From a virus, in IMG/VR virus record IMGVR_UViG_3300023174_000249, positions 1 through 48,868 of that record: a stretch of 48,868 bases of DNA; one strand, given 5' to 3'. A program made the translations under genes and the position numbers. Shown here in pieces: positions 81-27,884 of the stretch (the stretch's first letter is position 1; every line of letters starts with the position of its first letter). Under the pieces are notes generated by a model. That model was not told the origin of the DNA. It ran no database searches and worked only from the letters and a program-made list of their open reading frames with translations.

Positions 81-3000
81 ATGCCTCTGCATTTTAAAAA
101 AGCCTTTGCCCTCAGGGATAACAAAATCCAAGAAGTCGACGATAATGAAGTCGATGTAGAGTTATTGTCGTCTAATAACTTTTTCAGTACGCATATTAAT
201 TTAATTCCTATGCATTCAGCAGTGCAGGGTCCTCGTTTGTTTTATGGTGCTCGCTTTTATAACCAAGCGTTACCTCTTGTAAATCCTGACGCGCCACTTG
301 TACAGAATTTGGATTCGCAGGATAAGGATGGGCAGTCATTCGATGAAAAGCTAGGCAAGATAGCTGGTTCAGTAATTGCGGATGATGATGGCGAGGTTGT
401 TGATTTAACTAATGATTTTGTAAAGCTGAGGAAGGCGGACGGCTCCATTAAATCATTCGACCTTTATAATAATTTTCCGTTTAACAGAAAATCAGTTTCA
501 GGCACCTCAACTGTTTTAATAAAAAGAGATGGTGCTATTTCTAAATATAATATTGAAGACTATGTTTTTGAAAAAGGAGATCGTGTACTGTCCTATGATA
601 CAGAAAACAAGAAATCTGCCTGGCAGGAGGTAACAGCGTATTTAAAGCACACTAACGACAAAAAACTTTATACAGTCGCATTTGAATCCGGGAGATCTGT
701 CACAGTCACTGAGGATCATAGCCTATTAACGTTAGACAGAAACTGTAACATTGTTCCTGTGTATCCTTTGGATTGCATAGTTAACCGTACCAAATCCCCG
801 GTTGCCTTCGGTAATATAGAAGAAACAGGGGGAGAAAAGGATAGAGATTTAGGTACCTTAGTGGGGTTATATTTGGCTGAGGGCAGTTTAGGGAAGCAAA
901 AGGGTTTAGTTAGCATTGCTGTACAGTCGGAGGTACGCAGCGCAGAAGCTAAGGAGCTTGTAAGGCGCGTATTGGGGGTAAAACCACATGATGCGCTTGT
1001 TAACTGTTCTTTTACTTCCCATGAATTTCAAAGGTTCTTGCGGGATAACTGTGGTTCCGGTAGCAGCAACAAATTTATTAGTAATACAATATTAAGCAAG
1101 TCCCGCGCGTATCTTGAGGGGCTTATATGTGGGTACATGGCTGGCGATGGTTGTTTGTGGGCGGATACAAATGGCGCGTTACAACTTACCGCTGTTACAG
1201 TTTCTAAAAAACTAAGGGACGATTTAGTAGATGTGTTAAATATTCTTGGAGTATTTACTACTCTGTTCGATGTCCCTAGGAGTCACATAAATGACAAATG
1301 GAATGACGGATACGGCTTTCGTATTATCTCCTGCCACGCAAATAAATTAGCCCGTTGGTTTTTTTATAACGATAGACACATTAAATTTAACGCAATAGTT
1401 AAAAGTAAATACAGAGCTTCACCGTTCGAGCACATACCTTTAGTACCAGAAGCTAAAAAGAATCTTTATAAATCTTTTGCCTCAAAGGTGCCGCATTTCG
1501 TATACAAGTCGGCATTTATTGGTGCTGTATCGAAACACAGGCTGACGGCTAGTAAAGGAAACTTTGGTTTACTCGCAAACTCCGACTTGTTATGGGATAA
1601 AATTATTTCCATTGTTCCGGCTCCGTATGAAGCCTTTGTTTATGATTTAGAAGTTAACTCTTCCGAAGCTTTTGCTGTTAACGGTGGGTTGCTAGTGCAT
1701 AACACAGCAATTACGCATAAACCTTTAATTAACAAAGGTGATGTTGTGACCAAGGGACAGATGCTGGCTAAAAGTAACTATACCAGTGACAATGGTTCGT
1801 TGGCATTAGGAGCTAACGCGAGAGTAGGGCTGGTGCCGTTTAAAGGTTATAGTATGGACGACGCTATTGTTGTCAGTAATAGCTTTGCAAAAAGACTTAC
1901 GAGCGATCACTCGTATACGATGGAACAAGACTATGATAATGATGTTAAAGGAGGTCTTAATCATTATGTGTCATTGTTTCCTACACAATTCACTAAGGAT
2001 CAATTAAAGAGATTTGATCCCAGTGGTGTAGTTAAACCTGGTACAGTTGTAAAGCAGGGCGACCCATTAATTTTAGCCACCCGCCCACGTGTCTTTTCAT
2101 CTACTACCGCGCAGCTCGGTAAGCTTTCTAAAGCCATGCGGCAGAGCAGACATGACAGCTCCCAGATTTGGGATTCTGAATTCGATGGTACAGTTACTGA
2201 TGTAGCTAAAACAAAAACGGGCTATAAAGTTATTGTTAAGTCTGAAGCACCTGCGCAGATGGGGGACAAGATTGTTTTTCGTTCCGGGCAGAAAGGTGTT
2301 ATCGCGAATATTCTTTCTGACGATCATATGCCGCGTACGAAGGATGGAGCACCTTTGGAAGTACTGTTAAATCCTCTCGGTATTCCTTGCTATGATAGCG
2401 AGACTGAATTTTTAACGGATACAGGTTGGATTCCTGCTGCAGAAGTCAATGAAGAGCACAAGGTCGCTACCCTAAATACAAAAACTTTTTGTATTGAATT
2501 TCAAAAACCAACAGAAATTCATCATATTCCTTACGAGGGATTGATGTATAAATTCGTTAATCAACAACTAGATATATTAGTTACACCAGAGCATAATCAA
2601 TTCTCGGCCCCGCGCAGTTCACCCAAAATATACGGCAGTATCACTCCCAGTGATTCTGCGGTTTGGCCTCTGTTCGAATTAAATAAAGCAAAGGATATTT
2701 TTGGACAGCCTAGGCGTTACGCCAAGGCTGCTCTATGGCAGGGGCATACTCCGTCTGAATTCTATATTCCCTCGGGAAGCGTTAAATGCAATACTAACAA
2801 ACCCAAAGATGGTTTTTATGTAGATGCGGAAAAATGGGTAAAGTTTATGGGTTGGTATATTTCAGAAGGTAGTGCCTATATAAATAAAGGTAAAAAAGGG
2901 AATAGCTACACAGTAGAGATTTCGCAGTCTCTTATGGCCAATCCAGATAAGTATTCAGAAATAAGCGAGTTGCTAGATTCCATGCCTTTTGACTATGTTT

Positions 3001-4322
3001 ACAAAGGCAAGACTGGCTTTAGAATCTTTCATAAAGGCCTATATGAAAAATTAAGTATTTTGGGGAAAGCTAGAGATAAATACATCCCCAGGGATATACT
3101 TGATCTTAGTCCTAAGTTTCTACATTTATTTTTATCTTGCGCTATCAAAGGAGACGGCAATAAGTACAGTAACGCTAAAACTGGGCATGTAGATTGCTTG
3201 ACTTACACAACAGCGTCTAAAACTCTTGCTGGTAATATTCAAGAAATAACAGCTAAATTAGGTATTTCTGTTAATGTTAAGAAGGAGAATAGAAGGGGAT
3301 GCCAAGCCTGTTACTATCTTTCATTGAAAAAAAGAAGTCCTTTTGTGTGGACTAATTGGTCCGCTAAGACTAAGCAAGCAGACAGACAGGAAGAGGCATG
3401 GATTAGCTACAAAGGGCTGGTACATTGCGTCACAGTTCCAAATGGTGTTTTATTCGTGCGGCGTAATGGTAAAGCTGTTTTTAGTGGCAACTCCCGTGTG
3501 AACAATGGAATCATTTATGAGCTCTTGCTTGGAAAAGCAGCTGCCAAAATGGGACAACCAGTTAAAGTCCCCAGCTTCAATAAACCCGGAGAGAAGTGGT
3601 ATGACTTTGTGGCTAAAACACTGAAGGATAATGACTTGGCAGAAACTGAAGAAGTTTTTGATCCTATGAGCAATAAATTGCTCGAGAACCCCATTACTGT
3701 CGGCGTAGGTCATGTTTTAAAATTACATCATACTTCCGCCAGTAAAGCTTCGGCGCGCGGCCAGGGCGGCTATGATTTAGACCAGCAACCACTAAAAGGT
3801 GGCAGCGAAGCAGCACAAGCTAAAAGGTTATCGGGTTTAGAGGTACACAGTTTATTATCCGCCGGGGCGTATAAAACTCTAAAGGAAGGAGCAACTTTAA
3901 GAGGACAAAAAAACGATGAATACTGGAGAGCTTTACGCCAAGGTTATCAACCCAAACCGCCCGGAGCACCCTTTGCCTGGGAGAAATTTCAAACTCTACT
4001 TACTGGTGCTGGGCTGCAAGCCAGAAAAGTTGATGGCGGTAAATTACGTCTTGGGCCGTTTACAGATGATGATTTAGATAAACGTGGAGCTGTAGATATT
4101 AAGTCTGGCGACTTGGTTGATATGAATACTATGGACCCAGTTCCGGGTGGTTTGTTTGATCAATCAGTAGTTGGTAATAATAAGTGGGGTAAGATTTCGT
4201 TACCTTTTAAAGTACCGAATCCTGCATTTGAACCTGCAGTACGTCACTTGCTGGGTTTGACTGAAAAAGAACTTAGGGGTATTATGTCTGGACAAATGGA
4301 GCTGCCCGCGCACCTGCGATGA
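81..4322 (+). CDS. rpoB: RNA polymerase beta subunit, C-terminal part, with two inteins
   Basis: The 1413-residue precursor should splice to about 641 residues. Extein motifs are those of cellular RpoB: PMHSAVQGPRLFYGARF and QALPLV near residues 43-66; GYSMDDAIVVS near 590; MGDKIVFRSGQKGV near 725-740, holding the two conserved active-site lysines; LNPLGIP then SRVNNG, split by intein 2; and the GGSEAAQAKRLSGLEVHSL segment near 1250. The end, GLTEKELRGIMSGQ, is degenerate. The N-terminal half of beta (lobes, first half of the fork region) is absent and is probably encoded just upstream, as in phages with split polymerase subunits. Inteins occupy residues 138-541 and 770-1137. The ATG at 81 follows the previous stop by 2 bases, without a clear Shine-Dalgarno. 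It should pair with the beta-prime fragments at 5879 and 10840. Confidence 0.93.
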   Translation: MPLHFKKAFALRDNKIQEVDDNEVDVELLSSNNFFSTHINLIPMHSAVQGPRLFYGARFYNQALPLVNPDAPLVQNLDSQDKDGQSFDEKLGKIAGSVIADDDGEVVDLTNDFVKLRKADGSIKSFDLYNNFPFNRKSVSGTSTVLIKRDGAISKYNIEDYVFEKGDRVLSYDTENKKSAWQEVTAYLKHTNDKKLYTVAFESGRSVTVTEDHSLLTLDRNCNIVPVYPLDCIVNRTKSPVAFGNIEETGGEKDRDLGTLVGLYLAEGSLGKQKGLVSIAVQSEVRSAEAKELVRRVLGVKPHDALVNCSFTSHEFQRFLRDNCGSGSSNKFISNTILSKSRAYLEGLICGYMAGDGCLWADTNGALQLTAVTVSKKLRDDLVDVLNILGVFTTLFDVPRSHINDKWNDGYGFRIISCHANKLARWFFYNDRHIKFNAIVKSKYRASPFEHIPLVPEAKKNLYKSFASKVPHFVYKSAFIGAVSKHRLTASKGNFGLLANSDLLWDKIISIVPAPYEAFVYDLEVNSSEAFAVNGGLLVHNTAITHKPLINKGDVVTKGQMLAKSNYTSDNGSLALGANARVGLVPFKGYSMDDAIVVSNSFAKRLTSDHSYTMEQDYDNDVKGGLNHYVSLFPTQFTKDQLKRFDPSGVVKPGTVVKQGDPLILATRPRVFSSTTAQLGKLSKAMRQSRHDSSQIWDSEFDGTVTDVAKTKTGYKVIVKSEAPAQMGDKIVFRSGQKGVIANILSDDHMPRTKDGAPLEVLLNPLGIPCYDSETEFLTDTGWIPAAEVNEEHKVATLNTKTFCIEFQKPTEIHHIPYEGLMYKFVNQQLDILVTPEHNQFSAPRSSPKIYGSITPSDSAVWPLFELNKAKDIFGQPRRYAKAALWQGHTPSEFYIPSGSVKCNTNKPKDGFYVDAEKWVKFMGWYISEGSAYINKGKKGNSYTVEISQSLMANPDKYSEISELLDSMPFDYVYKGKTGFRIFHKGLYEKLSILGKARDKYIPRDILDLSPKFLHLFLSCAIKGDGNKYSNAKTGHVDCLTYTTASKTLAGNIQEITAKLGISVNVKKENRRGCQACYYLSLKKRSPFVWTNWSAKTKQADRQEEAWISYKGLVHCVTVPNGVLFVRRNGKAVFSGNSRVNNGIIYELLLGKAAAKMGQPVKVPSFNKPGEKWYDFVAKTLKDNDLAETEEVFDPMSNKLLENPITVGVGHVLKLHHTSASKASARGQGGYDLDQQPLKGGSEAAQAKRLSGLEVHSLLSAGAYKTLKEGATLRGQKNDEYWRALRQGYQPKPPGAPFAWEKFQTLLTGAGLQARKVDGGKLRLGPFTDDDLDKRGAVDIKSGDLVDMNTMDPVPGGLFDQSVVGNNKWGKISLPFKVPNPAFEPAVRHLLGLTEKELRGIMSGQMELPAHLR
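492..1703 (+). other. Intein 1 in RNA polymerase beta (Ser1 class, LAGLIDADG endonuclease)
   Basis: Residues 138-541 of the precursor (404 aa). The N-terminal block reads SVSGTSTVLIKRDG with Ser as residue 1. The TxxH block is TEDHSLL. The C-terminal blocks are FVYDLEVNSSEAFAVNGG and LLVHN, followed by Thr as +1 nucleophile. Two LAGLIDADG motifs, LVGLYLAEGSL (about 257-270) and LEGLICGYMAGDGCL (about 345-359), keep Glu and Asp, so the homing endonuclease may be active. The extein junction falls in the stretch equivalent to bacterial RSNQNTCINQRP. The first residue could instead be Ser140, but Ser138 fits the usual block spacing. Confidence 0.9.
2388..3491 (+). other. Intein 2 in RNA polymerase beta
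   Basis: Residues 770-1137 (368 aa), starting CYDSETEFLTDTGW and ending FSGN before Ser1138. The TxxH block is TPEHNQF; the C-terminal helper block is VHCVTVPNGVLFVRRNG. Endonuclease-type motifs are FMGWYISEGSAY (about 922-933) and FLSCAIKGDGN (about 1017-1027). The penultimate residue is Gly rather than the common His. Removal joins LNPLGIP to SRVNNG, restoring the invariant beta motif LNPLGVPSRMN. That exact reconstruction is strong evidence for the boundaries. Confidence 0.95.
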
Positions 4323-5878: not shown

Positions 5879-7009
5879 ATGCAACAAGCAGAAATACCTC
5901 TCACAGGTCCAGCGGCAATTCAATATGCGTTATCTAAAATTAATTTAGATGGGCTAAGAGAAAAGCATCTGCAGATCATTAGGTCTGGCGCTAAAAGCAA
6001 AAGAACAAAGTCGGTGCAGGCACTGAACACTATCGAAGGATTGAAAAGAAATGACCTGACGCCTGATAAACTTCTGGTTGGAAATGTTCCTGTAATACCT
6101 CCTGCGTTTCGTCCATTCAGTGTAGTCGGCAACACCTTTGTTCCCGGGGATGCAAACGAGTTGTACAGAGACTTGTTTCAGTATAGAGATATGCACAATG
6201 AAACCGAATCTATTTTGGGTGCTAAAGGATCAGCACAAGCAAAGCTAGATTTATATGATACTGTAAAAGCACTATATGGTTACGGAACTCCTATAGCTCC
6301 TAAAACCAAGCAAAGGGGCGTGGCCGGATTTTTAACACAAGTTACAGGCACTAACCCCAAGTATAGTTATTTTCAACGTAAACTAGTTTCCAAACCGCAG
6401 GACTCTGTAAGTCGCGGAACTATTGCTGTCGACCCTGATTTATCATTAGATGAGATTGGCGTACCTTTAACTATGGCATGGACTATGTATGCGCCATACA
6501 TACAAAGACGCTTGGTGCAGAATGGTATGAGTCCGTCCTCTGCATTACAAAATATTAAAGATAGAACTGACTATGCCAGAAAAGCTTTGGACCGGGAAGT
6601 CGGAGAACGTCCAGTGATTTATTCTAGAGCACCTTCATGGCATAAGTTCAATGTGCTTGCTGGTAGACCTAAACTTATTGAAGGTAATACCATTGCAATT
6701 AATCCATTAGTTACGACAGGGTTAAACGCTGACTTCGATGGTGACGCTATGAATTTACATGTTCCTAGTCAGCCTGAAGCAGTAGATGAAGCTTGGAAAA
6801 AACTAATGCCATCTAAAATGTTATTTTCTATTAGAGATCAAGATCAGGTTGTCCCTATTCCCAAACAGGAACTTGTTCTTGGGTTGTACACAGCCAATCG
6901 ACGTGAATCTAAAGCATCGCACGTATTCGATAATGAAGAAGACGCGTTGAAAGCTATTCGAACTGGCGGTATAAGTTTATCAGATGAAATTGAAATCCGC
7001 GCAAAGTAA
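5879..7009 (+). CDS. rpoC: RNA polymerase beta-prime subunit, N-terminal catalytic part
   Basis: 376 residues. It carries the universal catalytic motif NADFDGDAMNLHVP at 283-296, with the three Mg-binding aspartates D285, D287 and D289. Upstream are the conserved PVIPPAFRPF (about 70-80), DANELYRDLFQYR, RKLVSKPQDSVSRGTI (the RVDYSGRSVI-like block) and RPVIYSRAPSWHKFNVLAGRP blocks. It begins at a point equivalent to about residue 180-190 of E. coli RpoC, so the N-terminal zinc ribbon and start of the clamp are missing. It stops soon after LVLGLYTANR. The next part of the subunit is encoded 3.8 kb away at 10840. ATG 5879 follows an A-rich leader. No intein is present. Confidence 0.95.
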   Translation: MQQAEIPLTGPAAIQYALSKINLDGLREKHLQIIRSGAKSKRTKSVQALNTIEGLKRNDLTPDKLLVGNVPVIPPAFRPFSVVGNTFVPGDANELYRDLFQYRDMHNETESILGAKGSAQAKLDLYDTVKALYGYGTPIAPKTKQRGVAGFLTQVTGTNPKYSYFQRKLVSKPQDSVSRGTIAVDPDLSLDEIGVPLTMAWTMYAPYIQRRLVQNGMSPSSALQNIKDRTDYARKALDREVGERPVIYSRAPSWHKFNVLAGRPKLIEGNTIAINPLVTTGLNADFDGDAMNLHVPSQPEAVDEAWKKLMPSKMLFSIRDQDQVVPIPKQELVLGLYTANRRESKASHVFDNEEDALKAIRTGGISLSDEIEIRAK

Positions 7010-10480: not shown

Positions 10481-10840
10481 ATGCCTATTCAAATCAATCC
10501 CGCCTCGCAACAATATACCTTATTGCGAGGCGTAACTGGAGCTGGTGTGACCAGCGATGCTGTATTCCGTGGTTGGTACACCAATCATATGATTCAAGTC
10601 AGTACGTCTGGATCGACTGCGCAAACTTTCACTTTGTATACCAGCGCAGATGGTAATATATGGACAGCAATTAGAGATCATACTGACGTAGACAGCACTG
10701 TTGTAGGTTATACCGGAGCTAATGCGTCTGGCGTTATTAATCTGATCGGTAGCTACCCGTGGTTTCAAATTTCAACTGTAGGCGCTAGTAATAATCCATT
10801 CACTGCCGTAATTTACAGCACGAACAGAACTACGACCTAA
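10481..10840 (+). CDS. Small beta-rich structural protein
   Basis: 119 residues from the ATG at 10481 (MPIQINPASQQYTLL); the longer frame from an upstream TTG reads through promoter-like DNA and is less likely. Beta-strand-rich with FTLYTSADGNIWTAIRD and GSYPWFQISTVGASNN, resembling small phage head or fibre proteins. The TAA overlaps the ATG of the beta-prime C-terminal gene (TAATG), tying polymerase translation to this structural gene. Confidence 0.7.
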   Translation: MPIQINPASQQYTLLRGVTGAGVTSDAVFRGWYTNHMIQVSTSGSTAQTFTLYTSADGNIWTAIRDHTDVDSTVVGYTGANASGVINLIGSYPWFQISTVGASNNPFTAVIYSTNRTTT

Positions 10841-13800
10841 TGAAGGCAATTCAGCTTTTGGTAAACAGCCAATTACCGCCAGACCTTCGTGACTATAGCA
10901 GAGAATTAGATTCTAAGTCACTTGGCTCGTTGATGGCGGAAGTTGCGCGTAAATATCCGGAACAGTATGAACGGATATCCAAAGCTATTTCTGATATCGG
11001 ACGCAAAGCATCTTATTTCCAAGGCGAGTCATTAACCTTATCCGACAATCGTCCGGTTATTGATCGTGATAAATTGTTAATAGAAATGGATAATGAGATC
11101 GAAGAATCGAAAAGAACATCAACAGATAAGGATGACTTCGAAAATAAAAAGGTAAATATCTGGCATAAATACAATGACAGAATCCAAAAAGAAACAGCCA
11201 CAGAAGCATTAGCTAGAAAAAACAATCTCGCTTACTCGGTTATGTCTGGTGCGCGCGGAAAACCTGCGCAGCTGAAAATGATGTTATCTACCCCCGGGCT
11301 GTATACCGATGCGCAGGATAATATTATTCCATTGTTTGTTCGTACATCGTTTGCTGAGGGACTGAGGCCTGCTGAATATCTCGCCGGTACTTATGGTGCT
11401 CGTAAAGCAGTGCTTTGTTTACATCAGGACACATTGGTAAGACTAGCGGATGGCGCATCCTTACCTATTAAAGGCATACAAGAAGGTATGTATGTTTTGG
11501 GCGCGGATAAAGAAGGAAATACATTTCCTGTTCGCGTAGTGCGCGTTTATAACCAAGGTCTTCAGCCTGTATCTCGTTATACGTTTAGGCGCGGATGTGG
11601 TGATGGCAGACATGAAGTAGTCTGTACATCTAAACATGCGTTTCTTCAAAACGATTATAAAGCATATAATCAGGCGTATAATAGATTTCTTAAAGGAAAA
11701 GCACCGAGACCGCAAGCGGAGTTAATTCATAGCAAGGCAGTGTACCCAATAGGGGAAAAAAGATCCCGCCAAGCGGCAGTATTGGCGGGAGGCATGCAAT
11801 TTAACGGACGCGAGGAGCCGTACGCGCTGATGCTCGGTCTTTTAACCGGGGATGGTTGTCTCACAGATTCAAACTTAAGAATTAGACTTTCCTGCGCTGA
11901 TGAAAGTATGATAAATGATTTAGCGGGCTATATGCATAGCCTGAAACTAAAAATATCAGATCGTCGTTCGGCGGATAATTTTGATTGGGAAATTGTAGCC
12001 GCTAATTACACAGCTTCTGATAACAAGAGTATTCAGAAAGGCGTTCAGGGGTTTGTTGCTGACGCACGCATGGCGCACAAGCAGATTTTAATAGATGAAG
12101 GTCTAGCGTTTCATCGTGCCGAAACTAAAAAGCTTCCTACTAATATACATGCGTGGAATAATAAGTCTGTGGCAGCTTACCTTACTGGGCTGCTGGCTAC
12201 GGACGGCTCTATATATTTTGATGCAAACACTGGATATCCGCGTATATCATTTGCTATGACAGCTAAAGATGTAATCTTTGGATTACATAAATTATTACAG
12301 CATAGATTTGGCGTTTACGGTACAGAAATATCTTTCCGGGACGAGGGGGGATTTGGCGATAGTACCTCATTAAGAAAAAATCGTTTATGGGAATTTAGTG
12401 TAACAACTGACACAGGTATTAAACGGCTCCTGTCCGCGCTACCAACTATTCCCGGATGTAAGGAAGCCAAAAGACAACAAGCTTTACTAACTAAGCTTAA
12501 ACAAAAAAATCCATATCCGAAGGCGCGGTTAGAATTTGTTAAAGACGAGGGCCTCGCGCATTGTTACGATATTGAAGTGGACCATCCAGATCATCTATTC
12601 GTTTTAGACTCTGGTTTGATTACTAGCAACTCGACAAAAAGAGCGACCGCTAAAGGTGGTGACCTAGCTAAGCAAATGGTGCAGTCTGCGGCTAATTTAG
12701 TGGTATCTGAAAATGACTGCGGCGCTGCTAATGGTATTGACTTGGAATCCGATGATAAAAGTTTAAGAGGTCGTGTGCTGGCTCGAGATCTTGGTAACAT
12801 TACAGCTGGTACGGTGCTTGATAAAAATGCCTTAGCTTCTGTTCGGAAGCAAGGATTTGAAAAATTAATTGTGCGTAGCCCTATGACTTGTCAGGCTAAA
12901 GAAGGCGTATGTGCCCGCTGCATGGGATTAAACGCGCTTGGTAAGTTTCCAGCCAAAGGCGAGGCAGTTGGTATCACGGCAGCGCAGGCCATAGGCGAGC
13001 CTATTACGCAAGGAGCTCTAAACGTGAAGCACCAAGGCGGTGCCGCAGGTACTGATCGTCGTTACGCTGGGTTTTCCGTAATTAATCAATTCGTACAGAC
13101 TCCAGATACATTTCCTGATAAGGCTGTACTGTCTAAAATAGACGGACAAGTTAATAGCGTTATAGAGGCACCGCAAGGCGGTTACTATGTGACAGTAGAT
13201 AACGAACCACATTATATAGCACCTGGATACCCGGTCACAGTTAAAGTAGGTGATCGCGTTGAATCTGGCGATATGATGTCCGAAGGTCTGGCAGACCCGG
13301 GTGAAGTAGTTGAGTTGCGGGGCTTGGGCGAAGGTAGAAAATATTATGCAGATAAGCTTAAACAATTATTAGATGACTCTGGTATGGAGGCTGATAGGCG
13401 TAATACAGAGCTTATGTCGCGCGCAGCTTTGGATCACCTTCAAATTACAGATGTAAAAGAAGATGATGAATACTTACCGGATGATGTTGTCAGCTACTCG
13501 TATTTCTCGAATAGATATACACCACCTAAAGACACAACTAAATATAAATCAGATAAAGCGGTTGGTGTATACTTACAGAGTCCTGCTTTACATTATACTA
13601 TTGGTACTAAGATCACTCCTAAAATTGCTAAGCATCTTCAGTCAGCGGGATTCCAGGAAGTATTTGCTAGCCCTGCTTCTCCAACATTTAAACCGCACAT
13701 GGTGCGCCTGCGCGCAGCAACGCATCATGGTACAGACTGGCTAGCTTCGATGCACACTTCTTATCTGAAGAAGCAGCTAAGCGACTCTGCTCTTAGAGGT

Positions 13801-13896
13801 GAGGAGTCTAATGTAGAACAGAATATTCATTTTGCGCCAAGACTTGCAATTGGTACAAACTTCGGTGAAAATATAGAACAAACAGGGAAATTTTAA
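10840..13896 (+). CDS. rpoC: RNA polymerase beta-prime subunit, C-terminal part, with intein in the trigger-loop region
   Basis: The 1018-residue precursor splices to about 613. Extein blocks match bacterial RpoC: YSVMSGARGKPAQLKMML (bridge-helix lead-in, about 130-147), FAEGLRPAEYLAGTYGARKAVL (172-192), then after the intein STKRATAKGGDLAKQMV, SENDCG and MTCQAKEGVCARC (the second zinc site with four Cys), and GEAVGITAAQAIGEPITQGALNVKHQGG. The C-terminus is longer and less familiar. The intein is residues 193-597. The gene begins at about the level of E. coli residue 620, so the segment between NADFDGD and the bridge helix is shortened. The start overlaps the previous stop (TAATG). Confidence 0.95.
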   Translation: MKAIQLLVNSQLPPDLRDYSRELDSKSLGSLMAEVARKYPEQYERISKAISDIGRKASYFQGESLTLSDNRPVIDRDKLLIEMDNEIEESKRTSTDKDDFENKKVNIWHKYNDRIQKETATEALARKNNLAYSVMSGARGKPAQLKMMLSTPGLYTDAQDNIIPLFVRTSFAEGLRPAEYLAGTYGARKAVLCLHQDTLVRLADGASLPIKGIQEGMYVLGADKEGNTFPVRVVRVYNQGLQPVSRYTFRRGCGDGRHEVVCTSKHAFLQNDYKAYNQAYNRFLKGKAPRPQAELIHSKAVYPIGEKRSRQAAVLAGGMQFNGREEPYALMLGLLTGDGCLTDSNLRIRLSCADESMINDLAGYMHSLKLKISDRRSADNFDWEIVAANYTASDNKSIQKGVQGFVADARMAHKQILIDEGLAFHRAETKKLPTNIHAWNNKSVAAYLTGLLATDGSIYFDANTGYPRISFAMTAKDVIFGLHKLLQHRFGVYGTEISFRDEGGFGDSTSLRKNRLWEFSVTTDTGIKRLLSALPTIPGCKEAKRQQALLTKLKQKNPYPKARLEFVKDEGLAHCYDIEVDHPDHLFVLDSGLITSNSTKRATAKGGDLAKQMVQSAANLVVSENDCGAANGIDLESDDKSLRGRVLARDLGNITAGTVLDKNALASVRKQGFEKLIVRSPMTCQAKEGVCARCMGLNALGKFPAKGEAVGITAAQAIGEPITQGALNVKHQGGAAGTDRRYAGFSVINQFVQTPDTFPDKAVLSKIDGQVNSVIEAPQGGYYVTVDNEPHYIAPGYPVTVKVGDRVESGDMMSEGLADPGEVVELRGLGEGRKYYADKLKQLLDDSGMEADRRNTELMSRAALDHLQITDVKEDDEYLPDDVVSYSYFSNRYTPPKDTTKYKSDKAVGVYLQSPALHYTIGTKITPKIAKHLQSAGFQEVFASPASPTFKPHMVRLRAATHHGTDWLASMHTSYLKKQLSDSALRGEESNVEQNIHFAPRLAIGTNFGENIEQTGKF
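11416..12630 (+). other. Intein 3 in RNA polymerase beta-prime
   Basis: Residues 193-597 (405 aa), starting CLHQDTLVRLADGASLPIKG and ending LITSN before Ser598. The TxxH block is TSKHAF; the C-terminal block is HCYDIEVDHPDHLFVLDSG. LAGLIDADG motifs are LMLGLLTGDGCLT (about 330-342) and YLTGLLATDGSIY (about 448-460), both acidic residues kept. The penultimate residue is Ser instead of His. The host site is between GARKAVL and STKRATAKGG, within the stretch that forms the mobile trigger loop. Confidence 0.95.
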
Positions 13897-15191: not shown

Positions 15192-15220
15192 TTGCTAAAA
15201 AGTTTCACGCATTTTATATT
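15192..15220 (+). promoter_or_regulatory. Sigma70-like promoter giving a nearly leaderless mRNA
   Basis: TTGCTA (15192-15197), 17-bp spacer, TATATT (15215-15220). The ATG at 15228 is only 7 bases after the -10 box, so transcription should begin at or beside the start codon. Confidence 0.58.
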
Positions 15221-15227
15221 TAACAAT

Positions 15228-17837
15228 ATGTCTTTAGAATCTTACGACTGGAAAAAAGCAGCTGCGCAAGTCATGGATGACGGCTCTGTGGAGCGCGCAT
15301 TCATGGATCAAGCTTACGGCTTCCTTGCAAACAAAGCAGGCAAACTCATGCAAGATCCGCATCGCCTCGGCTTTGAAGTTGTTTATAAAAATGATTCAAA
15401 TACACGGATGGTGGGTATATTTGCCTTTCGTGTAAATGATCAGATTATGTACGTGCCTGTATTCTTCCTTAATGGGGATATCAAAGGCACGGACCTGCTT
15501 TACCGCCAAGAAACCAAAAGTTTTGTACCGTTAAATGATGAGTGGGTAACTTTTCTTGTTGAAAAGAATAACTATGATCCTGGCGTTCCTGTTGACCGCA
15601 AAGAGTTTACCCGGGCAAATAACCACGTTCGTCTTGAAGACATTGCGTATCCACCTAACTACAAACGCGACAAACGTGCTTCTGAACTAGACGCTGTAGG
15701 TCAAGAAGATGCAGACGTAAATAATGACGGCAAAACAGACACTACAGACGCTTATTTAAAAAAACGCCGCGAAATCGTCTCCAAGAAAGTTAAAGAAAAG
15801 AAAGCAGATAGCGATTCTATCGAAACTCTTGGAGATATCGATATGGTCTTGCAGGCGGCTTTTGATAAAAAAATTCCGGCTGAAGGTAAGATGCTCGATC
15901 CTGTGAATGCGGAGGATGCGGACATTAACAACGATAAAAAAGTTGATAAGACAGATAAGTATTTAGCTGCGCGCAGAAAGGCTGTTGCTGAAAGTATTGA
16001 TAAAGGCGCTGGTTATCTTATCCGTAAGTTTATAACAGAAGACGGTGGAATTGAGGCGCTGAATAAAGTTGCCGCAATGTTTGAAGGTAGCTATGAATTT
16101 GCCGAAGCTTTAGTTTCTAGTATCGACGAGAAGGATTACCTCCCTCAGGATATGCAGGTTAAATCTGCTGCGGCTCAAGAAGATAAACCAACGCTCGTGC
16201 TGTTCACGGGTAAGCCCGGAAAAAGCGAGCACTCGTATCTTTTAAAACAAGCTGATGCTACTAAAGATCCCAATAAGAGCCCCGCTGTAAATAAATTTGC
16301 AGATAAATTCTTCTCTCAAGGTTATTACCTTTGGGATGACAGAGCAGAAAGCGACATTGTACCGGTCTATAAAGACAATGAAGAAAAATTGGATATGATC
16401 GGTAGCGCTGGTATTTACGACGTGCTGCTGCATGATGGTTCGTTTAGAAAAGCTATTGTCGCACCTAAAAGTCAAACAGACTTTAAATGCGGTAATGCGC
16501 CTTTAACTTCTGCTAGCTATGCGGGCGACTCCTGGAACATTGGTGGTGTTGTTGAAAACATACAGTATAACTCTACTTCGAGAAGTATGTATCCTGATGT
16601 TGTCATCTGCTATATGGATGGTGAAAAAGAATCAGACATGCGTCGTCAGGTGCATGGTAAATTTGTTAAAGACCAAGCGCAAATGCTTCGCGATGGTGAC
16701 CTTGATACAGAAATGAAAGCAAAAGCCTCATACCGTATCTTTGATGTAGAGGCTGGGGCGTTGAGTGCTCCTTTTTATGTAGATAGCAAAAAAGAGGAGG
16801 ACGGTATTACTTACTACTCTGTAGTCCCAATGCATGGTGGTGATTTATTGACTTTGACGCACAATCCTGATATGTCAGAGAATGACTTGCGTGTTGGTTT
16901 TCTTGGTAACGCTGTTGCCTTCGTGCCTGTTGGTACTGAATCGTACAAGGTCAAAACAGACACATACGACGGACGTCCATACCACCAATATAGCTTTAAG
17001 AGAATTGAAGATTCAGAAATTGGAGATGTCGCCTCGTTGGATGCCTGGGTAACTGAATACGTAAAGAAAGCATCATTGCTGTACGACGTGGATTCCGATA
17101 CTTATAGCTGGAAAACAGGATACAAAGAACAAACCGACTACATGGAGAGAATCAATATGGCTGTCAAACTTGCTTCGGCGGGTTTCCATGCTGACGCTGT
17201 TGATGAGATGTTAACGGCTACGAAACAGGCAGGACATACCAATTGGTATTTCGGTGACCCGGAAATGCATAAATCTGCGTTTCCTATAATTCAGAACCGC
17301 GATGCTATTTTTCGCACTACGACTGACCAAGACTTTAAAGTTAATAAAGAATACCCTCAGTCGTTTATTCTGAGAACATCTAAAGACAGTTTACAATTGC
17401 CGCCACAGATTGTAGGTGACGCCTACGATCCGGGTATGGGTGTTAAGCCGGATGACACGGGTAACAGCAATAATAGCGGTATGTCAAAAGAGCAGCTCAT
17501 GACTATGAGCCCAGAACAGATAGCGCAGTTTGCTTCCTCCAATCAACTTCCCAATGTATTTGAGCATGGACTTGTCGGTTCCTTGGTGCAGGTGTACGAC
17601 TCCATGTCCATGATTGATAAATATTTGCCTGACATGGAAGAAGCGCTGGATCGTATGGGGCGTATATTGTTTCTGTTTTACTGGAAGCCACGTGATTTTG
17701 AAGATGCATACGGAGCGGATGACATGACCAACCTTGAAAATCAGATCCTGTCTAATTTCAAATCATTTGGTTCATTGACTCTGGATTTACTTCGGCGTTC
17801 TAAAAAGCGTAAGCTTGGTAATGTGTCTTTGAATTAA
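15228..17837 (+). CDS. Large structural protein with two EF-hand/dockerin-like calcium loops
   Basis: 869 residues from the ATG at 15228 (MSLESYDWKKAAAQVMDD); an upstream TTG frame overlaps the promoter and is rejected. Two loops, DADVNNDGKTDTTDAYL (about 161-177) and DADINNDKKVDKTDKYL (about 230-246), match the DxNxDGxxxxxD pattern of EF-hand or dockerin calcium sites. Each is followed by a basic helix. The rest is mixed alpha/beta with no named domain. It lies among proposed internal virion proteins. Calcium-dependent folding or assembly is inferred from the loops. Confidence 0.78.
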   Translation: MSLESYDWKKAAAQVMDDGSVERAFMDQAYGFLANKAGKLMQDPHRLGFEVVYKNDSNTRMVGIFAFRVNDQIMYVPVFFLNGDIKGTDLLYRQETKSFVPLNDEWVTFLVEKNNYDPGVPVDRKEFTRANNHVRLEDIAYPPNYKRDKRASELDAVGQEDADVNNDGKTDTTDAYLKKRREIVSKKVKEKKADSDSIETLGDIDMVLQAAFDKKIPAEGKMLDPVNAEDADINNDKKVDKTDKYLAARRKAVAESIDKGAGYLIRKFITEDGGIEALNKVAAMFEGSYEFAEALVSSIDEKDYLPQDMQVKSAAAQEDKPTLVLFTGKPGKSEHSYLLKQADATKDPNKSPAVNKFADKFFSQGYYLWDDRAESDIVPVYKDNEEKLDMIGSAGIYDVLLHDGSFRKAIVAPKSQTDFKCGNAPLTSASYAGDSWNIGGVVENIQYNSTSRSMYPDVVICYMDGEKESDMRRQVHGKFVKDQAQMLRDGDLDTEMKAKASYRIFDVEAGALSAPFYVDSKKEEDGITYYSVVPMHGGDLLTLTHNPDMSENDLRVGFLGNAVAFVPVGTESYKVKTDTYDGRPYHQYSFKRIEDSEIGDVASLDAWVTEYVKKASLLYDVDSDTYSWKTGYKEQTDYMERINMAVKLASAGFHADAVDEMLTATKQAGHTNWYFGDPEMHKSAFPIIQNRDAIFRTTTDQDFKVNKEYPQSFILRTSKDSLQLPPQIVGDAYDPGMGVKPDDTGNSNNSGMSKEQLMTMSPEQIAQFASSNQLPNVFEHGLVGSLVQVYDSMSMIDKYLPDMEEALDRMGRILFLFYWKPRDFEDAYGADDMTNLENQILSNFKSFGSLTLDLLRRSKKRKLGNVSLN

Positions 17838-21856: not shown

Positions 21857-24562
21857 ATGGATAAAATTCATTATCAAACAGACCAAGAAGATTTGCTGCG
21901 TCTTTGCGATGGGCAGATGTTTACGCTTTATGATGACAACATCAAATCAGCGGCATCTGATACATTCACTAAAGATATGCTTCGCGAGTATGCCCCTGAT
22001 AAAGATCACTTCATGCTACATGTTGTAGCCATGGGTGACCAGGAGACTTATGGTCCAAATAAGAACGGAGATGGATTTCCTAAAGAAGCTTTAGAAAAAT
22101 ATCATCCTACATTTATCAGTGATGGGTGTTTCTTCCGGGAGCATCGGAACCGTTGCCAGCAAACCCAGGGTATTGGCTCTATTAAAGCGTCTGCGTACAA
22201 TCCTAAAATGCGCCGCGTGGAATTAATTGTCCATGGCAATAAGGAGAAGGCAGCGAAGGAATATGAAATGGCTAAGTCTGGTAAGGCTTTGTCATTTAGT
22301 ATGTCCTGCTTTCCTGCCGGAACTTTAGTGCGCTTAGCAGACGGTACAGAAAAACCTATTGAATTAATTAATGTAGGAGAAAAAGTAATTACACACAAAG
22401 GTAATATCGGTTATGTGGCGCATACTATGAGTAGATCCTACACAGGTTCTGCTACGCAACTTAGGGCCTACGGCTTGCCCGAAGCTATAGTATGTACGCC
22501 AGACCATGGTGTCTGGGCTCGCCCCACCATAAGAAGTAATACCGAATGCCCGGTGTGCGGTAGTAAATTTAAAAGTCTTAAAGCGCATTTACGCCAGAAG
22601 AAGGATGGCAAGCATGCTAAGGCTTATGCTGACTATTCTAGATATGCAGAGGGCTTTATTGGTGCTCACTTACTTATGCCGGGTGACTTTGTGCGCACAG
22701 CATTTTTAAAACGCGCTATTACGTATACTCCTGCAGCGCATCTACCTAGACTTCTTGGCCTATATTTAGCCGAAGGTTCCTTATCTGTAATAAAAAGTAA
22801 TTATAAAAATTTGGATGGTGCAGTTAGTGCCTACTTTGATTACAGAACAGAGCTTACTTTTAATATAAATGAAACTAACTTAGTAGAGGAAACGAAGTAT
22901 TTAATCGAATGCTTTACTGGTAAAAGACCATCTTCTTTTGATTACGAGGATGAACACAGAACGGTTGTACGCGCGCACTCTAAAGATTTGCATGACTGGT
23001 TGTTAACCAACGGCGGTAAGTACGGCAATTCTAAGCGTATATCTGAAGAAGTGATGGGTTGGGATACGCCTTATCTGAAACAAGTTTTAGAAGCCTGGAT
23101 GGAAGGTGATGGTACTTGGAATAAAGCTAACGAAGTCTTGGCAGGTACTACAGTATCACGTAACTTAATGTGGCAAATTACCGAGATAGCCGCCAGATTA
23201 AATCTGATAGCTAATGTTAGTTCGTACACTTCTAAAAATACAAGTAAACAAACAGCTTACACGATTGCTTTCAATAGTAGTGCTACTGCTTCGTTAAATA
23301 TTTCTAAAGTTCCTAGCTCCTGGAAACCATATACGGGCACGCATAGAGCAGTAGGTCATTTAAAGAATCAAACACAAGGTCAATTAACTGCACAACCTGT
23401 AATCACAAGTCGCCCGCAGTGCTTTGTCGAGAATGGATTTATTTACAGAAAGCTGCGCGCAGTAAAAAGTATTTTTATAAACGAACTTGTATATGACCTG
23501 ACTATTCCTGGCGATCACGGTTTTCAGGTTCATGGTTACGGCGTAAGTAACTGCAGAGTTCCTTACGATATTTGTAACTGCTGCGAAAAGAAAGCCTCTT
23601 CCCCGTCTAATTACTGCGATCATTTAAAGCATAACATGCTGCAGTATCTGCCTGAGTTTAAGAAGTACGCATTCGCTATTAATGATAAACCTAAATTCTT
23701 TGATATTTCTGCTGTAGAGAAACCAGCGGATAGAATTGCGCATTATCTGGATTACGCATTTCCTGCTGGCGAAAAAGCTGCATCGTTTAATGGTATAATA
23801 ACAGGCACGCAGTGGGCTTCATTTGAAGGAGTTAAACTTCCCGGTAATGAACCTGCCTGGGACTCGGAACAATATGCTTTACTTGAAAAGTTAGCAGCTG
23901 CTGAAGAATATGTGCAGCACACACTAACTACGAAGTCGGCAGCTAAAGATCAAAAAACAGCTTTTGTTCGTGACGTAATCCCTAATGCTTTTAATGAAGA
24001 ATTAGAAGAAAAAGATATTGAGAAGCTTAGAACATTACAAGTTGGCACTATGTGTCGGGAACTTGCGAAGCGTGCGAGTATCTTGCCTTTCTATTCTTTC
24101 ATTTCTTACGCGACCGGTAGGTCGTTACAGGAAACTAAAGATGATCCAATTACAAAGCGTGCCTGCAGTATGCTTCCAGACATTTTCAAAAAGCTTATGA
24201 CGTCCAACTGCGGCTGTGAGTTAGGTAACATGTTTGATAGCAGTTCCGACTATTCATGTGGCGCGGACTCTGCCAATGACGATGAAGTTCAGAAACTAAT
24301 GGATATGGCAGAACAAAAGTTTTCCATTAAGACTGAGCCTGTTAAAAATCGTGTCATGACGATTATGATTATTAAAGGTGCTAGTGAAAAAATTCCACAA
24401 ACACCGCGCATTGAACTTACAGAAAGTTTTGAAAAACGTGCATTAGCACTTGCTGAAACTTACGGATTGTATAAACTTAGTGCCTTACAAGACATAATGA
24501 ATTTTCATGGTGACGAAATCGACGAACCACAGTATTTGTTGGTAGTAGGACAAAACATTTAA
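21857..24562 (+). CDS. Prohead (head maturation) protease with intein at the active site
   Basis: The 901-residue precursor splices to about 486. The extein has the phage prohead protease pattern: YGPNKNGDGFPKEAL (about 63-77), FFREHRNR with the likely catalytic His96, and LSFSMS then CRVPYD with the likely catalytic Ser148. The intein (151-565) sits three residues after that serine. A Cys-rich segment follows (DICNCCEKKASSPSNYCDH), probably metal-binding as in related proteases. The remaining C-terminal ~300 residues are helical and may be a scaffold-interacting domain. It precedes the scaffold candidate and capsid genes, as expected. It should cleave scaffold and internal proteins during head maturation, only after splicing. 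Confidence 0.88.
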   Translation: MDKIHYQTDQEDLLRLCDGQMFTLYDDNIKSAASDTFTKDMLREYAPDKDHFMLHVVAMGDQETYGPNKNGDGFPKEALEKYHPTFISDGCFFREHRNRCQQTQGIGSIKASAYNPKMRRVELIVHGNKEKAAKEYEMAKSGKALSFSMSCFPAGTLVRLADGTEKPIELINVGEKVITHKGNIGYVAHTMSRSYTGSATQLRAYGLPEAIVCTPDHGVWARPTIRSNTECPVCGSKFKSLKAHLRQKKDGKHAKAYADYSRYAEGFIGAHLLMPGDFVRTAFLKRAITYTPAAHLPRLLGLYLAEGSLSVIKSNYKNLDGAVSAYFDYRTELTFNINETNLVEETKYLIECFTGKRPSSFDYEDEHRTVVRAHSKDLHDWLLTNGGKYGNSKRISEEVMGWDTPYLKQVLEAWMEGDGTWNKANEVLAGTTVSRNLMWQITEIAARLNLIANVSSYTSKNTSKQTAYTIAFNSSATASLNISKVPSSWKPYTGTHRAVGHLKNQTQGQLTAQPVITSRPQCFVENGFIYRKLRAVKSIFINELVYDLTIPGDHGFQVHGYGVSNCRVPYDICNCCEKKASSPSNYCDHLKHNMLQYLPEFKKYAFAINDKPKFFDISAVEKPADRIAHYLDYAFPAGEKAASFNGIITGTQWASFEGVKLPGNEPAWDSEQYALLEKLAAAEEYVQHTLTTKSAAKDQKTAFVRDVIPNAFNEELEEKDIEKLRTLQVGTMCRELAKRASILPFYSFISYATGRSLQETKDDPITKRACSMLPDIFKKLMTSNCGCELGNMFDSSSDYSCGADSANDDEVQKLMDMAEQKFSIKTEPVKNRVMTIMIIKGASEKIPQTPRIELTESFEKRALALAETYGLYKLSALQDIMNFHGDEIDEPQYLLVVGQNI
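22307..23551 (+). other. Intein 4 in the prohead protease, with zinc-finger insert
   Basis: Residues 151-565 (415 aa), starting CFPAGTLVRLADGTEKPIEL and ending GVSN before Cys566. The TxxH block is TPDHGVW; the C-terminal helper block is YDLTIPGDHGFQVHGYG. LAGLIDADG motifs are LLGLYLAEGSLS (about 299-310) and LEAWMEGDGTW (about 412-422). Between the splicing block and the endonuclease lies a C2H2-like motif (C231, C234, H244, H253). The penultimate residue is Ser rather than His. Confidence 0.95.
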
Positions 24563-24618: not shown

Positions 24619-25797
24619 ATGGACACGACAAAACCACTCCAGTTCGCCAGCGTACTCGACCGCATCAAGTCTTTTCAACAAAGTAAGCTTGCTGCTGACA
24701 CTTCTTCTGTGAAAGATCCCGCAGATAAAGGTACTGTTGGAATCCCTACGGATCCAGAAAATACCCCCGCAAAAGAAAACATGCCTGCTGACCAGGACAA
24801 CATGTCTTCGAATGAAGGTACAAAACTGGAAGACAAACAGCTTCAGCCTGTTTCCACTGGTAAAAATGTTCCTTCGGCTTCCAATGGTAATGCCAAGGAA
24901 CATGTTTCTTCTTCCACTGATTCTCTTAGCAAAATCGCTAAGCGCGTCGCCTCCGTTACTAGCAAGCTGAAAAGCGCTGGTATGCTGGACGTTAAAGACG
25001 AAGATGAGTCTAAGGCCGATAAACCTAAAATGGATAAAATTGAAGGCGAACCTGAGTCATCTGAAAATACTGATAAAGGAAATAAAACCAAACCCCCTTT
25101 TGGTAAAACTAAAGGCAAGGACGAGAAGACCGAAAAAGAAGCAGCTAATGACACCCTTGCTTCCGATCTTTCTCCTGAAGCACTTATGAAACTGGCTTCA
25201 ACAATTATCGCCACTGAAGGCGGACTTGCTGCTGTCGAACCTGTGCTTATGAAAGCTGCTGGAATTGAAGCCGCCAGACAAATCATGACACAAGCTGTAG
25301 ATTCATATAGCCATTTTGCAAACCAGCAAGCTGCTTATCAAGAGTACGCGAAACAAGCTTCCGAAGAGCAAGCGTATAATGATTTAGCCTTTGAAGAATT
25401 CTTCAAATCTGCCTCAGATCAAGATCAACAGCATATCGTGAAATTTGCACAAGTACATGGTGAGGCGCTTAGTAATATCGAAAACGATATGCTTAAGCAA
25501 GCTTACATGCAGGGCGCTGAAGACGCTGCTGCCATGGAAGATGCTGGTGGCGAACTTCCCGGAGCAGAAGGTCCTGCGACTATTGAACAAATCGCTCAAC
25601 TGTTGGAAACCATGATAGCCTCTGGTGAAATCGACGAAGAAACCGCTATGGGTATTCTGCAGGAGCTGGCAGCTGGCTCTGAAGGCGAAGCTATGGAAGG
25701 CGAAGCTATGGAAGATCCTGAAGCCCCGATGGAAAGCGAAGAGTTCAAGCAAGCTTCAGAGCTGTGCGCGGAGCTGATTTCAAAAGTATATAAATAA
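24619..25797 (+). CDS. Putative scaffold / prohead core protein
   Basis: 392 residues, strongly acidic, rich in Lys/Glu/Ser/Pro in the first 180 residues (low complexity) and helical afterwards. Acidic repeats near the C-terminus (GEAMEGEAMEDPEAP) are encoded by short DNA repeats around 25680-25725. Position between the prohead protease and the major capsid protein, plus this composition, matches scaffold proteins that are digested during maturation. No sequence family is recognised, so the role rests on context and composition. Confidence 0.68.
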   Translation: MDTTKPLQFASVLDRIKSFQQSKLAADTSSVKDPADKGTVGIPTDPENTPAKENMPADQDNMSSNEGTKLEDKQLQPVSTGKNVPSASNGNAKEHVSSSTDSLSKIAKRVASVTSKLKSAGMLDVKDEDESKADKPKMDKIEGEPESSENTDKGNKTKPPFGKTKGKDEKTEKEAANDTLASDLSPEALMKLASTIIATEGGLAAVEPVLMKAAGIEAARQIMTQAVDSYSHFANQQAAYQEYAKQASEEQAYNDLAFEEFFKSASDQDQQHIVKFAQVHGEALSNIENDMLKQAYMQGAEDAAAMEDAGGELPGAEGPATIEQIAQLLETMIASGEIDEETAMGILQELAAGSEGEAMEGEAMEDPEAPMESEEFKQASELCAELISKVYK

Positions 25798-26933: not shown

Positions 26934-27884
26934 ATGTCTCAAGAAGCCAATTTAGAATCAACCGAAGTTCTGAGCAAGAAGCTCCTCGACGCGATCTCTC
27001 GCGCTGATGACGGCCTGCTTAAGAATGCATCGGATGCCGGTACTCAAATGATTCGCCGCAGGTTGCGTGAAAACGGGTTCTCCCGTTTGATCCTGCCTTA
27101 TAAGCAAGTCTCGGACGCTGATCTCAACTACCTCCCTGACACCGAATTACCGGTGATAGTGGAAGAAATGGAGCCAGAATCCCCCGGTGCCAAAGCCATT
27201 CCGTTCAATGACACAGCCGATACTGCGTTCTATCGCGGTGACAAGTTTGTCGTGTATTTTTGCAAAATCACGACTCCCGAGTTCACCAAGAACGTTGACG
27301 AGTTGCGTACTTACAAAAACGACCTGCGTCAAGTGATCACCGACAACGCTCTGAAGGATATTCAGACCGAAGAAGATGGTCGCTTCATTAAGGAAGTGGA
27401 CCGTATTTGCGCTGCTGCCGAAGCTGGTGTCGATCAGGACTACACGATTAATACACTAATCACGCGCGATTCATACGCGGAAGCTCTCAGCTTCCTGGAA
27501 GATCGTAACCTTAACAACGGTGTGTTCCTCATGAACCGCCGCACTGCTAAGGACATCCTCCGCTTGAATCGTACAGAAATAGGTGGTGATCTCGCAGAAA
27601 CTCTGTTCAAGTCTGGTCTTAGCGGTCTTCAGTCCGCAGAGATCATGGGCGTTCGTCATATCTTCACCATGAAGCGCGATCTCGTCGCTGATGGTGTTGT
27701 TTATCAGTTCGCTGAACCGAATTTCCTGGGTCGCGCTTATGTCCTTCAGGACGTCACCATGTATGTTGAGAAGAAGAAGGATATCCTTCGCTTCTCAGCA
27801 CAAGAAAAGATCGGTATCACGTTTGCTAACGTGGCTGGTCTTAACAAGGTGACCTTCTCGGGCGTGCGTATTAGCGCAGTTTAA
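26934..27884 (+). CDS. Major capsid protein
   Basis: 316 residues, starting MSQEANLESTEVLSKKLLDA. The pattern of a helical N-arm, central long helix (VDELRTYKNDLRQVITDNAL, about 122-141), spine-like segment and C-terminal beta region (YVLQDVTMYVEKKKDILRF, then VAGLNKVTFSGVRIS) fits an HK97-fold major capsid protein. Supporting context: protease and scaffold candidate upstream, strong AAGGA Shine-Dalgarno (26922-26926), codons richer in G+C than most neighbours, and a strong terminator straight after. The identity is by context and general pattern rather than a named motif. Confidence 0.78.
   Translation: MSQEANLESTEVLSKKLLDAISRADDGLLKNASDAGTQMIRRRLRENGFSRLILPYKQVSDADLNYLPDTELPVIVEEMEPESPGAKAIPFNDTADTAFYRGDKFVVYFCKITTPEFTKNVDELRTYKNDLRQVITDNALKDIQTEEDGRFIKEVDRICAAAEAGVDQDYTINTLITRDSYAEALSFLEDRNLNNGVFLMNRRTAKDILRLNRTEIGGDLAETLFKSGLSGLQSAEIMGVRHIFTMKRDLVADGVVYQFAEPNFLGRAYVLQDVTMYVEKKKDILRFSAQEKIGITFANVAGLNKVTFSGVRISAV

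Follow-up and report, generated by a model that had tools for sequence, protein, structure and literature searches.

An intein at the catalytic-serine motif of a phage prohead protease, with related inteins at the same site

Within the stretch of viral DNA analysed here (IMG/VR record IMGVR_UViG_3300023174_000249, positions 1 to 48,868, 48,868 nucleotides in all; hereafter the window), we identified an intein at an exact position in the catalytic-serine motif of a prohead protease, with an empty allele of the same site in a related contig, intact splicing and endonuclease residues, and related inteins that recur at this site and carry interchangeable modules in a shared slot. From sequence comparison, this is very probably a homing-competent class 1 intein in which a C2H2-like finger acts as an accessory DNA-recognition module, and we infer both splicing and homing in vivo. 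Taken with its relatives, it makes the prohead protease appear to be an unrecognised hot spot for inteins.

A class 1 intein in a prohead-protease gene

The protease precursor is encoded by an open reading frame at 21857-24562 (901 amino acids plus stop; all features described here lie on the plus strand), which reads in-frame through the intein without a stop codon. The N-extein (residues 1-150, 21857-22306) ends in SFSMS and the C-extein (23552-24559) begins with CRVPYD, flanks already read in this way by the earlier note, while the intein between them occupies precursor residues 151-565, i.e. 415 amino acids from C1 to N415 (22307-23551). The end residues are those of a class 1 intein, with C151 at position 1, N565 as the terminal Asn, and C566 as the +1 nucleophile. 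In an alignment of 32 inteins, we located splicing block A with the C1 nucleophile (CFPAGT..ADG, 22307-22345) and block B (T64-x2-H67, 22496-22507; H67 invariant, T64 conserved in at least 90%), followed at 23489-23551 by block F (V395-Y396-D397 with H404, intein numbering) and block G (S414-N415, then C). The two motifs of a LAGLIDADG homing endonuclease lie in between, LLGLYLAEG at 22751-22777 and LEAWMEGDG at 23087-23113, and both acidic residues (E156 and D268, respectively) are intact and invariant across the alignment.

Hint and LAGLIDADG Pfam models matched the intein below their curated cut-offs, NCBIfam searches gave chance-like matches only, and a scan of genome contigs yielded two weak matches, both endonuclease-only. 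A PDB sequence search with the intein or extein profile returned nothing useful, so that fold comparison was needed. An AlphaFold2 model built from the 32-intein alignment had a mean pLDDT of 86, and a Foldseek search of the PDB matched it to TliVMA (E 6e-18), PI-SceI, PI-PfuI, PI-TkoII, and I-DmoI, the last a fold match for the endonuclease.

The decisive test of intein identity came from an empty allele. Viral contig L001 carries an intein-free version of the gene, which reads LSFSMS|CRVPYDIC across the site and otherwise aligns without gaps; the two exteins share 94% amino-acid identity over the aligned protease part, and DNA alignments between window and L001 break off at 22309 and restart at 23551. 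Together with the splicing blocks and the fold match, this allele confirmed to the base the earlier placement of an intein at 22307-23551, just after the catalytic serine. Around the insertion site (codons 136-200), only 5 of 63 identical residues differ synonymously from L001, compared to 137 of 382 elsewhere (Fisher p 2e-6; the tract was delimited after inspection, and other causes are possible). Since few synonymous differences are expected after a recent exchange near a homing site, recent exchange by homing would be the simplest reading of this pattern.

The extein was assigned to the prohead proteases, of the T4 gp21/HK97 type, through its relatives and its fold. PHROG 18299 ("head maturation protease") matched seven of seven aligned extein relatives (E 1e-4 for the L001 extein, 2.5e-26 at best), Pfam searches of the exteins were uninformative, and a major head protein match was found at 26934-27884, 2.4 kb downstream of the protease gene; the presumed scaffold is encoded at 24619-25797. 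The spliced-form model had a core pLDDT above 90; its best PDB match was T4 gp21 (5jbl), at modest significance (E 0.07, prob 0.92), and many named prohead proteases were recovered among predicted viral proteins at E < 1e-6. Across 58 aligned relatives, H96 (the presumed catalytic His, codon 22142-22144), S148 (the presumed catalytic Ser, codon 22298-22300), M149, and an N-x-N-G-D motif that includes N68-x-N70 of the N-extein are invariant. In T4 gp21, the catalytic residues are, we assume, H85 and S140. A weak hhalign alignment (E 0.023, probability 2%) paired S148 with gp21 residue 140 and E95 with H85, leaving H96 one gap position away. A metal-like knuckle in the C-extein, C573-x2-C576...C587-x-H589 (23573-23623), starts seven residues after C566 and is near-invariant in the same 58-sequence alignment (C158 equivalent invariant; C161, C172, and H174 in at least 90%). 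Because the insertion point (150/151) falls within the predicted strand 146-152 that carries S148, the unspliced precursor should be inactive, which lends predicted structural support to the earlier suggestion that protease activity depends on splicing.

Other genes in the window carry inteins as well. Two lie at 492-1703 and 2388-3491 in a phage RNA polymerase beta-like subunit gene (81-4322), one with Ser1 and a following Thr (RK^S...HN^T) and the other with the junctions GIP^C...GN^SRVNNG, and a fourth window intein, at 11416-12630 in a beta'-like gene (10840-13896; AVL^C...TSN^STKR), also has a penultimate Ser. The beta' subunit itself looks split into an N-terminal part with NADFDGD (5879-7009) and the 10840-13896 part, with about 3.8 kb of other open reading frames between them, including one that matches tail fibre families. 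A protein with EF-hand/dockerin-like repeats (DADVNNDGKTD, DADINNDKKVD) is encoded at 15192-17837, upstream of the head genes.

Recurrence of inteins in prohead proteases

IMG/VR scans with intein and junction alignments, combined with a count of inteins at SM[GS]^C junctions, revealed that at least 32 different inteins interrupt the protease serine motif, and hence at least 31 phage sequences besides the window. These comprise the window intein, that of Eggerthella phage LE2-3, 28 others, and those of L138 and L180; a further candidate, L130 (KTMG^C), was dropped because its extein is unlike the protease. Counting the window's, 31 inteins share one codon boundary (SM[GS]^C), and the LE2-3 intein sits two codons downstream. 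Four of the 32 are incomplete at their ends, and joining the exteins in silico restored an SMG-C...CxxC-type sequence in 26 complete cases. Two mini-inteins at this site (L237, 182 amino acids; L239, 134 amino acids) consist of a complete set of splicing blocks only, with neither endonuclease nor finger.

Insertions also occur elsewhere in these proteases, at the N-x-N and His motifs and at others nearby: INNN^ (6 inteins), KPYKN^CNGD (2), HH^C (L002 and L171), F[ST]H^CTIVASV (2), and GGENY^CEH (L114), and PHROG matches back several of these hosts as proteases. Four loci (L106, L114, L148, and L171) have at least two inteins each within one protease gene. The 80 loci recovered by an extein-profile search were all uninterrupted, in a set biased towards contiguous matches.

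The finger, its slot, and the control of splicing

After block B and before its first LAGLIDADG motif, the window intein carries the pattern C-x2-C-x9-H-x8-H (22547-22615; precursor C231, C234, H244, and H253, all present as the earlier note had listed them). This pattern appears in only 0.5% of composition-shuffled copies of the intein, and L233, a divergent phage whose intein occupies this site too, has CPVCNKKFNQVLTHIIRSTNKEH, with identical spacing. The spacing departs from the canonical C2H2 arrangement (C-x2-4-C-x12-H-x3-5-H), the region is modeled at low confidence (pLDDT about 58-66, with helices predicted over residues 91-100 and 102-113 of the intein), and a finger-only search of phages gave matches at E > 1 only. 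Membership in the Ros/MucR or Dbf4 finger types was rejected, the ROS_MUCR and zf-DBF matches being weak, below Pfam cut-offs, and thus a resemblance only. The zinc-finger insert described in the earlier note thus holds up only as a finger-like one: its ligand spacing is kept in L233 and varied in LE2-3, but that spacing is non-canonical and the predicted structure of the finger is of low confidence.

C2H2-type fingers were found in only three cases (the window, L233, and LE2-3, the last with CxC in place of CxxC). A metal-like motif was present in the slot of 25 of 43 relatives against 0.2 expected on shuffling, and Cys density reaches 4.0% in the slot vs. 1.7% elsewhere. Four or more patterns, unrelated to one another, are represented (C2H2-like, C-x-CGCG...GH, CxxC...CxxxC, and spaced C4), and some inteins have no module: by inspection, the 32 serine-site inteins include 3 with C2H2-like, 10 with CxCGCG, 3 with CC-CC, and 2 with C4 modules, and 14 without, the two mini-inteins among them. 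In the intein tree, most combinations of site and module form their own clade, and the finger-bearing LE2-3 and finger-less L118 inteins are sisters (support 100/98). Related inteins with a spaced-Cys module were also seen at a conserved portal-protein site (IDFH^TDVPMSK) in L128, L134, L137, L152, and L179, where close relatives without the module exist.

The finger would be dispensable for splicing, since both L118, the finger-less sister of the LE2-3 intein, and the finger-less mini-inteins have complete splicing blocks. A slot that swaps metal-like modules among relatives fits a role in DNA recognition for homing, one of two functions raised in the earlier note, and accessory domains of endonuclease-bearing archaeal inteins do modulate DNA cleavage in experiment (PMC8966425). 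By this analogy, homing-site recognition would be a better reading of the finger than a zinc switch, with the finger presumably binding zinc and contacting DNA. C1, C566, and N415 would then drive splicing after translation and re-form SFSMS-CRVPYD, restoring the active-site strand. Once excised, the intein would act on DNA as a LAGLIDADG endonuclease cutting empty alleles at the conserved codon stretch, whose repair would copy the intein in, and the finger would serve as a swappable accessory DNA-recognition module of the kind carried in this slot by related inteins.

The window intein ends in Ser414-Asn415, whereas 31 of 33 complete inteins keep a penultimate His. This block G residue is usual for class 1 inteins but not obligatory. 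As splicing without it has been documented (PMC5050341), Ser414 does not exclude class 1 membership. In mycobacteriophage inteins, the penultimate position is variable, with His often lost, and affects the level of precursor; in one published phage case, splicing was slower in the His mutant than in the non-His original, so that the direction of any effect is unpredictable (PMC5050341). The penultimate Ser is nonetheless a better lead on splicing rate than the finger.

Several other explanations were weighed against a homing intein with an accessory recognition module. An open frame with no stop would also be expected of a permanent protease domain that is not an intein, but the empty allele, the full set of splicing blocks, and the intein fold leave that idea almost no probability. 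It is unlikely, if conceivable, that the intein is a decaying passenger that still splices while its endonuclease and finger no longer function: its very long tree branch and the mini-inteins at the site would suit such decay, but both LAGLIDADG acidic residues and all four finger ligands are intact, and the low synonymous divergence near the site suggests recent exchange.

The remaining alternatives give the intein a role in the timing of protease activation. If zinc on the finger altered the splicing rate, it would control when the protease is activated, in line with a finger of conserved ligand spacing adjoining block B, a second metal-like knuckle in the extein just past the junction, and the reversible inhibition of inteins by zinc (PMC7360933). 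The published site of that inhibition, however, is the catalytic cysteine, not a finger (PMC7360933), and zinc sensitivity might thus extend to any Cys1 intein, whether or not it has a finger; the slot modules of relatives are non-homologous, and finger-less sisters and mini-inteins at the same site keep complete splicing blocks. With 14 of the 32 serine-site inteins lacking a module, zinc-sensitive splicing through the finger, the other function raised in the earlier note, is thus disfavoured, and zinc gating seems to us very improbable. Hardly more probable is a zymogen timer, in which slow splicing tuned by the penultimate Ser delays the protease until the procapsid is assembled and the intein is retained as beneficial. 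It would account for an insertion within the predicted active-site strand, for the recurrence of inteins at catalytic motifs, and for the penultimate Ser, a position with an effect on the amount of precursor in a phage intein (PMC5050341), but the close relative L001 manages without an intein, inteins have selfish reasons to favour conserved motifs, most relatives at the serine site keep His, and the faster splicing of the published non-His intein (PMC5050341) leaves the direction of the effect unpredictable. Intein-dependent timing of capsid maturation, as the earlier note had envisaged, is possible but unsupported. We would give only slightly more credit, and still very little, to the broader proposal that catalytic-motif inteins of large-phage prohead proteases are built-in zymogen timers, whose delayed splicing, at a rate set by non-canonical residues or metal modules, keeps the protease off during scaffold assembly.

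Significance and comparison with known systems

Precedents exist for inteins in catalytic motifs, for inteins in phages, and for accessory DNA-binding domains. In the open-licence papers covered, we found no report of an intein in a prohead protease or of metal modules exchanged within the slot that separates block B from the endonuclease; a survey of mycobacteriophage inteins lists none in a protease (PMC5050341), and the prohead protease genes of Jug phages have been described as fragmented or highly divergent, with the cause unstated (PMC12363816). Prohead proteases that bear inteins are mislabeled by annotators, as in LE2-3. They offer natural test cases for regulation vs. mere parasitism, since each intein splits an enzyme whose premature activity is expected to destroy the capsid scaffold. 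The interchangeable metal-binding-like modules likewise form a natural library in which to study how targets change in homing endonucleases, and from which meganuclease specificity might be engineered.

Among characterized systems, T4 gp21 (PDB 5jbl) resembles the extein in fold, as the top PDB match with the serine aligned at residue 140, but T4 gene 21 (212 amino acids) has no intein and its sequence similarity is low. TliVMA, PI-SceI, and PI-TkoII share the Hint plus LAGLIDADG architecture and fold of the window intein and have an accessory domain to which modulation of DNA recognition has been ascribed (PMC8966425); they differ in their host genes and in accessory domains of other folds, with no zinc finger described in the excerpted text of that study. 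Mycobacteriophage inteins (TerL, RecB-like, RDF, and portal; PMC5050341) similarly occupy functional motifs of packaging and DNA proteins and have often lost the penultimate His, but the prohead protease is absent from their host genes. Much closer is gp71 of Eggerthella phage LE2-3 (MW679026; L022 7848-10961), annotated as a "tRNA synthetase" in a record that does not recognise the intein. Its intein is 29.6% identical to that of the window over the full length, interrupts a homologous protease, and has a C2H2-like finger in the same slot, but it differs in a site two codons downstream (SMGLN^C), a finger with CxC and longer spacing, and a penultimate His. L233 (IMG/VR 3300001598_000034) also has a penultimate His and comes from a divergent host phage, but resembles the window in its intein, inserted at SMG^C with a C-x2-C-x9-H-x8-H finger and followed by the C-extein CRVKFDVCSLCG.
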